Of a stretch of DNA of 40,631 bases, positions 25,749-40,631 are shown piece after piece (within the stretch, counting starts at the first letter, position 1; each line of letters opens with the position of its first letter). Made by a program: the position numbers and the translations under genes. The stretch is from IMG/VR virus record IMGVR_UViG_3300035663_000033, positions 1 to 40,631 of that record. One strand, 5' to 3'. A model generated the notes under the pieces. That model was not told where the DNA came from. It did not search any database and worked only from the letters and a program-made list of their open reading frames with translations. The stretch is from a virus.

Positions 25749-26999
25749 TTAGTAGAGGCGGTAGGAGGTTTGGCCGAGGGTGCCGTGTTTGGCGAGGTTG
25801 AATTGTTGGAGGCAGAGGTAGCCGAAGGCGTCGAAAGCGTGGTCTACGCCTAGGTTTTTGTTGGGGAGGCCAGTTCCAGGGGCGTAGGTGAGGGTGCGGA
25901 GGGATTTGATTAGTTCTTTGCAGCGGGGGTGGATGTAGGTGCGGCGTGTTCCAGTCGCATCCAAGAGGGCGGTGTTGACGGCGGTGATTTTGTCGCGGAT
26001 TTTCCAGGGGGCTTTGGGGCTGGAGACGTTAAAACCGCTGCGGCGGAGGATGTTGTGGTCGGTAAGTCCCACGCCGGAGGTTTTGCGAGCGCCACCGGTG
26101 GGGTCGGGACATGCGATGACGCGGCGATCCACGCCGAAGCGGCGGGTGACTTCTTCGGCAAAGTCCCAAGTGGTGGCGCCACCAGTGAGCATGATTTCGT
26201 CGAAGACGTAGAGGGTGTCGTCTTTGAGGACGGCGCAGATGCCGGACATGGGATCCACGTTGAAGTCCACCCCCAAAAGGAGTGGAAGTATTGAAATGTC
26301 GGCTGCGTCGGTGGAGATATTGGCGTCGCTGAAGGAGACGGCGACGAGGCCGCTCAGGTTTTCGAAGCTGGCTTCGAATTCTTGGCGGAAGGTGCGCGAG
26401 TCGAGTTGGCTGCGGGCGGCTTCGATTTCCTCGGCGGGGACGTTGTCGCCTTCGATGGTGGTGAACTGCCAGCGGCTCCAGTCGGAATCGCCGGAGTCGG
26501 CGTATTGCCAGAGTTCGTAGAACCAGCTGGCGGTGCCGTCGGGGGTGGAGATGAAGAGTGCCCAGCCTTGTTTGTCGGCGAGTGCGGGTCGGATGACTTC
26601 GAACCAGACGTCGCTGGACATGAACGCGGCTTCGTCGAGCACCACGCCAGCCAGACTGCGGCCTCGCAGGGCCATGGCATTTTCAGTGCCCTTCAGTTCG
26701 ATGGTGGAGCCGTTCACCAGCTCGATTTTTAGGTCGGTCTCGTTTTTGGATTTGATCCAGGCTTTTGGGACAAGTTTTTTTAGTACCTTCCAGGCGATGT
26801 CTTTCGCCATGCGGTAGGTGGGGGCGGCGTAGAAAAAGGTTTCGCCGGGGCGTTCGATTGCCCCACGCAAAAGTTCGATGCAGGAGAGGTAGCTCTTGCC
26901 GAAGCGGCGGCCGGCAACCAAGACACGGAAGCGTTTACGGCTGGAGAAGACTTGTCCCTGGGCGTAGCGGAGGGAGAGGGTTCCAGCCGTTTCGGCCAT
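25749..26999 (-). CDS. terL: Terminase large subunit
   Basis: A 416-residue packaging motor. The ATPase has Walker A AGRRFGKS (29-36), a coupling region ALFISTPDG (147-155) and Walker B GVVLDE (118-123). The RNase H-like nuclease has LGVDFNVDP (Asp245), ACPDPTGG (Asp299) and GVDHAFDAFGY (Asp386/Asp390). It translocates DNA into the head through the portal and cuts the concatemer. Length is normal. No Shine-Dalgarno is evident. A 222-base repeat-rich segment precedes it. Confidence 0.95.
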   Translation of the reverse strand: MAETAGTLSLRYAQGQVFSSRKRFRVLVAGRRFGKSYLSCIELLRGAIERPGETFFYAAPTYRMAKDIAWKVLKKLVPKAWIKSKNETDLKIELVNGSTIELKGTENAMALRGRSLAGVVLDEAAFMSSDVWFEVIRPALADKQGWALFISTPDGTASWFYELWQYADSGDSDWSRWQFTTIEGDNVPAEEIEAARSQLDSRTFRQEFEASFENLSGLVAVSFSDANISTDAADISILPLLLGVDFNVDPMSGICAVLKDDTLYVFDEIMLTGGATTWDFAEEVTRRFGVDRRVIACPDPTGGARKTSGVGLTDHNILRRSGFNVSSPKAPWKIRDKITAVNTALLDATGTRRTYIHPRCKELIKSLRTLTYAPGTGLPNKNLGVDHAFDAFGYLCLQQFNLAKHGTLGQTSYRLY

Positions 27000-27163
27000 T
27001 TTTCGGGGACGGGTACCTTCTAGGGTATTACAGAAATTCGACCCCTCCCCCCGGTGTGTAACAGAGGGAGGAAATGCGAATGTATCAGTAGGTTCCCTGC
27101 CCCCCGGTACGTACGTACTATTCTCGCAACCCTCCCCCCGGTCGCTGGTACGGTTGTATTGTA

Positions 27164-27175
27164 GTACAGCTGTAC
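27164..27175. promoter_or_regulatory. 12-bp palindrome GTACAGCTGTAC, copy 1
   Basis: Perfect palindrome. The same core recurs at 27204-27215, exactly 40 bases (about four helical turns) away, so both would face the same side of the DNA. Confidence 0.65.
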
Positions 27176-27202
27176 CCGCAGAAAATTAGATAAATTCCTG
27201 TG

Positions 27203-27216
27203 AGTACAGCTGTACT
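27203..27216. promoter_or_regulatory. 14-bp palindrome AGTACAGCTGTACT, copy 2
   Basis: Perfect 14-bp palindrome containing the same 12-bp core as copy 1. It ends 6 bases before the stop of the small membrane-protein gene. A dimeric DNA-binding protein is the likely ligand: a regulator or the small terminase. Confidence 0.65.
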
Positions 27217-27221
27217 AACCC

Positions 27222-27359
27222 TCAGCGGCTGGCGTCCAGGTAGAGCGCACCACCGCCGGCGAACACCAGGAGCGCGGTGAGGGGGAGGAACGTGCAGCAG
27301 GCAGCGCCAGCGAACAGGAGGCCGGCGGCGAGCTTGGGGTTGAGGGAGGGGTGGGCCAT
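27222..27359 (-). CDS. 45-aa hydrophobic membrane protein
   Basis: From the ATG at 27359, preceded by CGGAGC as a ribosome-binding site. Residues about 9-41 (KLAAGLLFAGAACCTFLPLT followed by ALLVFAGGGALYL) form one long or two short membrane helices; the ends are polar. It lies between the probable small terminase and the terminase large subunit genes. It might be a holin-like protein or early membrane effector. The frame continues upstream to 27419, but the SD-ATG pair argues for the shorter start. Confidence 0.6.
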   Translation of the reverse strand: MAHPSLNPKLAAGLLFAGAACCTFLPLTALLVFAGGGALYLDASR

Positions 27360-27473
27360 GGGTGAGCTCCGTTGTTGTCTTGCACAGTATAGAGACAGAA
27401 GCAGCGCGCGCCAGGGCATCGCCGCCGGTTGGGCAGCTGTCTACTGTTTCAACCTAAGACGCCGAATATCAGC

Positions 27474-27968
27474 CTAAGACTCTGCGCTGCGCTTGTCGTC
27501 GATCTCCACCCGAAGCACGGGGGCCGCGGCGGCCTGGGCTTCCGGTGCGACCTCGCCGACCACTGCGCCCATGTCCTTGAGCAGCATCGCTGCAGTCTGC
27601 AGCTGACCCTTCCGCACGGCAGCAGAGAACAGCCGTTCTCTCATCTGAGCGATTCGAGAGACTAACCGCGGCCTCTCTCGCTCAAAATCCTGCGCTACCC
27701 ACTGTTGCACAGCGTCCCAGTCTTTCCAGGCTGTACTTACAGCGATGCCCTCTCTTTCTGCGTGCTCTAGCACCAGTTGCCGTGTGGTGAGCCCGTCTAG
27801 TTGCCGTTTGTACAGCCGCTGTTGGCGTTGCTCTATCACTGCGTCAGGATTGCGCTTGCCGTAGATTCGCCGCATCCTTTCGGCGCTATCACGGGGATAA
27901 CCGTTCGCGGTTAAATCTTCCGCCGCAACTTCCGGCGCTTCGGTGTTAGCTTCCGGCTGTTCGGCCAT
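27474..27968 (-). CDS. Probable terminase small subunit
   Basis: A 164-residue protein from the ATG at 27968. Residues 1-30 are acidic and flexible. About 55-105 hold an HTH-like region (QRQQRLYKRQLDGLTTRQLV, HAEREGIAVSTAWKDWDAVQ) and about 108-145 a helical oligomerisation segment (RPRLVSRIAQMRERLFSAAV, KGQLQTAAMLLKDMGAVVGE). HTH followed by a long helix is the small-terminase layout, and the place upstream of terL supports it. It would bind the packaging site, perhaps in the adjacent non-coding segment. The 114 bases between its stop and the next gene show nothing else. A DNA-binding regulator is the alternative. Confidence 0.62.
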   Translation of the reverse strand: MAEQPEANTEAPEVAAEDLTANGYPRDSAERMRRIYGKRNPDAVIEQRQQRLYKRQLDGLTTRQLVLEHAEREGIAVSTAWKDWDAVQQWVAQDFERERPRLVSRIAQMRERLFSAAVRKGQLQTAAMLLKDMGAVVGEVAPEAQAAAAPVLRVEIDDKRSAES

Positions 27969-40434: not shown

Positions 40435-40631
40435 ATGACGCGGTATGTGGTTATGGCCGGGGATCGCTGGGTCACAGCGGTCTACGGACCAGGGGATGGA
40501 ATCGGTTTTACGGCGACTAAGGAGGATGCCTCCAGCTGGGTCACCTACGAAAAGGCTGTCGCTGCGGCGCGGGTTGTTGCTGATCGCACTGACAGCTTTG
40601 TTGCTGTTCATAGCATTGAAGAACCCAACTA
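40435..40631 (+). CDS. 5' part of junction-spanning small protein
   Basis: This is the first 65 codons (plus 2 bases) of the gene that continues at position 2-163 on the left end. The start MTRYVVMAGDRWVTAVYGPG is set by the ATG at 40435, 6 bases after a palindrome; there is no clear SD. Joined, the product is 71 residues. No family recognised. Regulation by the preceding ribbon-helix-helix gene is suggested by the shared ACTAGAC motif. Confidence 0.75.
   Translation, partial: MTRYVVMAGDRWVTAVYGPGDGIGFTATKEDASSWVTYEKAVAAARVVADRTDSFVAVHSIEEPN
40488..40631. repeat. Right copy of terminal direct repeat
   Basis: Identical to 1-144 except C at 40614 in place of T at 127. See the left copy for interpretation. 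Confidence 0.95.

Follow-up and report, generated by a model that had tools for sequence, protein, structure and literature searches.

The window analysed here, a virus record of 40,631 nt from IMG/VR taken at its full length, contains a 222-bp segment (27000–27221) that an initial annotation described as free of genes, rich in repeats and palindromes, and placed between the two terminase subunit genes. The lack of genes was confirmed and the coordinates were right. The segment adjoins the terminase large subunit gene terL (25749–26999, minus strand; PF03237, 5e-17; phrog_2, 4e-46) and, proceeding upstream from terL in the sense of transcription, is followed by a small hydrophobic ORF and then by the presumed small subunit gene, terS. 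The ORF (27222–27419, minus strand) encodes 65 aa, or possibly 45 aa from an inner ATG, is without a family match, and has its stop codon at 27222, just beyond the gene-free segment; its place is occupied by different small genes in relatives. The presumed terS (27474–27968, minus strand) encodes a 164-aa helical, DNA-binding-like protein with homologues next to terL in 163 fetched sequences and an AlphaFold model that is nearly all helix (pLDDT 76). Family, fold, PDB and viral searches with this protein gave no significant match to a terminase small subunit; the location between subunit genes therefore holds on the terL side, while the identity of the other neighbour was not confirmed by family or fold. 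Among relatives, the presumed terS gene shifts in place and strand, lying in the sense orientation upstream of the repeat R1 (described below), as an antisense gene between R2 and terL, or beyond terL on its downstream side.

The phage genome is a complete circular contig whose last 144 bases repeat the first 144 with one mismatch (1–144 and 40488–40631); the circle measures ~40.49 kb, the record including the overlap at the seam twice. This near-exact 144-nt end overlap was considered as a terminal repeat at 27000–27221 and rejected as the product of ordinary circular assembly. GC skew is strongly positive across most of 17 to 27 kb and approximately zero from 27 to 30 kb, and this drop at ~27000 makes the segment a compositional boundary as well.

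The virus is a member of a probably picocyanobacterial siphovirus family. Within the set of sequences fetched from IMG/VR, at least 80 terL relatives share 83–99% identity with it; a further relative lies inside a Prochlorococcus single-cell genome (82% identity) and another in a cyanobacterial metagenome-assembled genome (MAG; 83%). Additional terL relatives in MAGs from assorted phyla are probably mis-binned contigs. Among annotated relatives, the closest capsid and portal proteins are mostly those of cyanophages (S-2L, KBS-S-2A, S-H1 and MED4-184). Because of the single-cell and cyanobacterial MAG matches and the cyanophage-like capsid and portal proteins, the host is most likely a picocyanobacterium. 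For comparison, 108 distinct relative regions were gathered using the R2 word together with terL, so R2 is present in them by construction; a recognisable R2 is missing from roughly eighteen relatives that are more distant. Contigs of relatives are designated by L-numbers (L003, L015 and so on).

GTAC boxes matching the cyanobacterial LexA consensus

Two GTACAGCTGTAC-centred palindromes, spaced 40 bp start to start and sharing 13 bases, lie where the initial annotation had placed them, although the spacing corresponds to 3.8 helical turns at 10.5 bp per turn and not to exactly four as it had proposed. The first, box A (AGTACAGCTGTACT, 27203–27216), is a perfect 14-bp palindrome; the second, box B (AGTACAGCTGTACC, 27163–27176), lies 40 bp from it. 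The reported GTAC triple is also present (box C, GGTACGTACGTACT, 27106–27119, between R1 and R2). All three contain GTACNNNNGTAC, or GTAC-N4-GTAC, which occurs three times in the 40.6 kb, always inside 27000–27221, compared to 0.13 sites expected; none of 100 shuffled sequences reached three. The GTAC triple is a site of the same type as the palindromes. GTAC itself is rare in the genome (97 copies compared to 149 expected), yet nine copies fall in these 222 bp, whereas no other 222-bp stretch of the genome holds more than four.

The form of these sites is that of the cyanobacterial LexA box, RGTACNNNDGTWCB (PMC3091678). Boxes A and B match this consensus fully on both strands and are predicted LexA-type operators; box C and a degenerate fourth site, box D (GGTACGGTTGTATT, GTAC..GTAT, 27147–27160), each have one mismatch to the strict consensus. 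Box D shares its form with GGTACAAATGTATT and GGTACACATGTATT, found upstream of picocyanobacterial lexA (PMC3091678). LexA-type words are reported upstream of recA and lexA, with AGTACAGATGTACT carried by Prochlorococcus recA and AGTACACCTGTACT by Nostoc (PMC3091678), and the operators of Nostoc PCC 7120 and of Prochlorococcus recA are the same 14-bp RGTAC-N4-GTWC pseudo-palindromes as those of the phage; box A differs from the Prochlorococcus recA site by one base. As in the phage, the word is carried by genomes of the inferred host's family, where AGTACANNTGTACT is enriched, being present in 71 of 121 genomes, compared to only two matches for a reversed control pattern. No LexA_DNA_bind or Peptidase_S24 homologue scored above the cut-off in the phage genome or in 11 long contigs of relatives. 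Unlike known cyanobacterial LexA operators, the phage array packs two strict boxes and two near-matches into 111 bp, adjoins a terminase gene and not a repair gene, and has two boxes that pair into a hairpin.

Several observations in relatives bear on these sites. First, the palindrome pair is kept in six contigs of the same clade (L003 = L329, L109, L330–L333), always 40 bp apart, and a related box array is found in L015, where box A is likewise conserved; in L109, box B is GGTACAGCTGTATT, a form that occurs upstream of lexA in marine picocyanobacteria. Second, the centre of box C varies while both GTAC halves are fixed (GTAC in the phage genome, GGAT in L333, GCCT in L015), and L015 contains five GTAC-N4-GTAC sites with differing spacers, three of which arise from GTACs at 8-bp steps. 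Third, across the 108 distinct relatives, 18 strict LexA boxes occur in the 63.5 kb upstream of R2 and five in the other 906 kb, a ~51-fold enrichment in which the counts are not independent since the relatives share ancestry. The boxes come from nine of the 108 regions, representing seven lineages by our count, and include GTTC forms in L012 and L191, which the consensus permits. Both the non-random placement and the conservation of half-sites expected of a LexA operator were thus found, the latter as spacer drift in box C and L015. Fixed half-sites, varying spacers and the match to cyanobacterial LexA operators together lend good support to the earlier suggestion that a DNA-binding protein acts at the palindromes.

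A conserved C-rich element upstream of terL

The three C-rich direct repeats of the initial annotation were recovered at 27042–27060, 27095–27113 and 27129–27147, each 19 nt long, with 74–79% identity to the first. Taken alone the repeat is not rare, as its C-rich 12-mer occurs five times at up to two mismatches compared to 6.6 expected, and the repeats are meaningful only because they are conserved in relatives. Read on the minus strand in the sense of terL, R1 is CCGGGGGGAGGG (27130–27141), whose G-run is found in all 108 distinct relatives; R2 is CCGGGGGGCAGGGAACCTACT (27087–27107), with AGGGAACCTACTG as the core common to relatives; and R3 is again CCGGGGGGAGGG (27043–27054), followed by a conserved CTGTAATACCCTAGAAGGTACCC. 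The G-run of R2 is special to the phage's own clade, and those of R1 and R3 are kept in relatives. An alignment of 13 diverse sequences contains strings of invariant columns, many of them from R2 to terL, and supports a conserved control element at 27000–27141 (minus strand). Since this element persists in relatives that lack the palindromes, the repeats and the palindromes are distinct features.

The element may be a late promoter or leader with binding sites, or a packaging site. A consensus scan of the segment found no sigma-70-type promoter; a TG-A-TAYAWY word within R2 looks like an extended -10, from which we claim no promoter. In a consensus RNA structure from R1 to terL, none of the 17 pairs had a compensatory change, and no conserved RNA structure is therefore claimed. 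An inserted gene between R2 and R3 in L004, L016, L056, L064, L081, L082, L086 and L109 encodes a Cys-rich, secreted-looking protein with a repeated CP.G.Y....YC; the gene, which has its own CTTCTGTACTACA motif, is present in many relatives.

The initial annotation named the segment a candidate packaging site. In this reading R1-R2-R3 would be the cos or pac site to which the small terminase binds, with the palindromes as accessories; we consider it unlikely while allowing it an appreciable chance. The element lies at the left boundary of the terL/structural module and stays before terL while the presumed terS gene moves, and the distance from R1 to R2 is 41–44 bp in 108 of 108 distinct regions with varying bases in between. 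Known phage packaging sites, namely the R-sites of lambda cosB and the pac sites near terS, likewise consist of repeats held at restricted distances next to terminase genes; they differ from the present element, for which no fixed genome end was seen and no terminase binding is known, and in which inserted genes can separate R3 from R1-R2. The distance between R2 and R3 is not fixed, as small genes or an antisense presumed terS are inserted there in some relatives, breaking a fixed three-repeat geometry, and the palindromes are missing from most relatives that retain R1-R2. Contig ends also speak against this proposal: in 11 contigs of relatives of 38–46 kb, five of them circular like the phage genome, the breakpoints are scattered 1.4–36 kb upstream of terL with none in the interval, and the breakpoint of the phage genome likewise lies elsewhere, though these are metagenomic contigs and not maps of virion ends. 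Contig ends in general are only mildly denser near terL, without a sharp pile-up, and this mild density can be explained by a conserved element shared among co-occurring phages. The breakpoints neither prove nor exclude a pac or cos function of the C-rich repeats. Shared contig starts upstream of R2 in L096, L137, L152 and L042 were rejected as physical ends, being an artefact of a 700-nt cut-off.

Hairpin formed by boxes A and B

Boxes A and B are joined in one hairpin by a long imperfect inverted repeat (27162–27217, minus strand) with 27-nt arms that are 85% complementary and reach beyond the palindrome words. The stem comprises 16 bp with one mismatch and a further 6 bp, and the predicted RNA fold has an energy of -33.4 kcal/mol (z -9.1). 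The hairpin is conserved in the clade, and L015 keeps an 11-bp inner stem despite changed bases. In the AT-rich clade, canonical intrinsic terminators consisting of a GC stem followed by a T-run occupy the same slot (L063, L068, L080, L118, L145 and L171), so that the segment looks like an early/late boundary and the slot may also have a terminator role.

These features, and the fact that R1 itself belongs to CCGGGGGGCGACCTCCGGCTTTTTT terminators in several freshwater-type relatives, would suit a palindrome pair that is primarily a stem-loop ending or attenuating early transcription before the late operon, its LexA likeness being incidental. The stem, although strong, is built from two GTACAGCTGTAC copies and not from a GC-rich sequence. 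We judge the stem-loop reading improbable. Neither a T-tract after the stem nor any terminator-like site was detected in the phage genome, whereas T-tracts do occur in relatives of the AT-rich clade and in some of freshwater type. Much of the folding energy is automatic, since a self-complementary word that is present twice will always pair with its copy. Box C and the LexA boxes of L006, L012, L128 and L033 lie outside this hairpin, and single LexA-like sites elsewhere among the relatives are not prone to hairpin formation (mean z -0.14).

Other occupants of the slot in relatives

Other lineages carry different sites upstream of R1, in the slot of the phage's LexA-type boxes. LexA-like sites with one degenerate half are present in about 20 relatives, and others have terminators. 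Fur/Zur-like TGAGAATCATTCTCA palindromes were found in about 26 relatives (including L058, L155, L199, L210, L228 and L236), and the word reaches a far higher density in the slot than outside it; a GC-clamped inverted repeat often surrounds it, and in a marine clade it overlaps the stop codon of the upstream gene. In L217, L218, L047 and L078, part of the marine clade, a long palindrome, GATACGAATTCGTATC, replaces the Fur/Zur-like one; we know of no operator of this form. In host-family genomes, TGAGAATCATTCTCA had only eight matches, compared to two for the control, and a Fur-type reading was rejected on this ground. Four host matches are C-centred, one between Fur-family and znuA-like genes (the latter named by us from sequence, without a family hit) and another where a CobW/ZigA-like gene begins; on this genomic context TGAGAATCATTCTCA would be at best a Zur-type lead.

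About 32 relatives, mostly of one marine clade, carry GTCACA-N4-GTAACA direct repeats upstream of R1, which resemble HLR1, the RpaB motif (PMC9241938). In the marine clade L199–L237, a nearly invariant, HLR1-like direct repeat, GTCACAAAATGTAACA, lies ~19 nt before R1; after it comes a covarying hairpin, ACCCG...CGGGT, of which R1 is a part. In L006, L009, L053, L094 and L175, a TAGTACAACTGCACTA-type site upstream of R1 is immediately preceded by the gene of a small HTH-like protein whose C-terminal sequence is TQQAIADRLGCSR.TVRRLLA, and this protein could bind the adjoining site.

One speculative idea, to which we give little credence at present, is that the slot is a regulatory socket into which different lineages plug LexA, Fur/Zur-type TGAGAATCATTCTCA or RpaB/HLR1-like operators, or plain terminators, so that, depending on the lineage, late expression would follow DNA damage, metal, or the light/redox state. 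The weakness of TGAGAATCATTCTCA as a host operator and the many sites in GC-clamped hairpins are the reasons to keep this idea tentative.

Discussion

Our results slightly favour the view that the segment carries an array of host-LexA operators at the early/late boundary, before the terL-led late operon of a picocyanobacterial siphophage. The match to the consensus, the enrichment in the interval, the spacer drift, the word in host-family genomes and the lack of a phage LexA-type protein point to host LexA as the probable binder of the boxes. In the mechanism that we infer, with a picocyanobacterium as the likely host, boxes A and B, and probably also C and D, would be occupied by dimers of host LexA. 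These boxes border the conserved R1-R2 element that precedes terL and extend into it. Bound LexA would act as a repressor on a putative promoter within R1-R2 and hold back late transcription until DNA damage or infection lowers LexA, and the A/B hairpin may additionally slow or end transcription arriving from the early side. Several points weigh against LexA control. Strict boxes occur in only nine of 108 distinct relatives, and the counts are not independent because of shared ancestry; the strong A/B hairpin could itself be the selected feature; the segment has no sigma-70 consensus promoter; other proteins with GTAC half-sites are possible binders; and in some cyanobacteria LexA does not drive a classical SOS response (PMC4759255). 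That the boxes are instead operators of a phage-encoded regulator, such as the presumed small terminase or one of the small HTH proteins encoded beside the slot in relatives, seems very doubtful: in several relatives the gene just upstream of a TAGTACAACTGCACTA-type site codes for a small HTH-like protein, and the 27474–27968 protein is predicted to be almost all-helical, but the adjacent 65-aa ORF of the phage genome is hydrophobic and not HTH-like, the presumed small terminase occurs throughout, regardless of the type of site, and the box word is also common in host-family genomes.

Control of a phage by host LexA is already known from the Bacillus phage GIL01, in which host LexA and the co-factor gp7 control the lysogenic promoter P1 (PMC4551915). 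The predicted LexA array would resemble GIL01 in that host LexA, acting through a group of SOS boxes, keeps phage transcription in check; it differs in that GIL01 is a tectivirus regulated at P1 with gp7, whereas here the array lies before terL and no co-factor is known. A literature search at the level of titles and abstracts found no report of LexA operators on a cyanophage.

The array, as read from its sequence and position, suggests that the late genes respond to the condition of the host cell. If LexA does control the late operon, DNA damage in surface waters, from UV or other causes, could directly determine when virions are made in an abundant picocyanophage family. If true, the replacement of one operator type by another at a single fixed position would be a natural experiment on how phages are rewired to host physiology.
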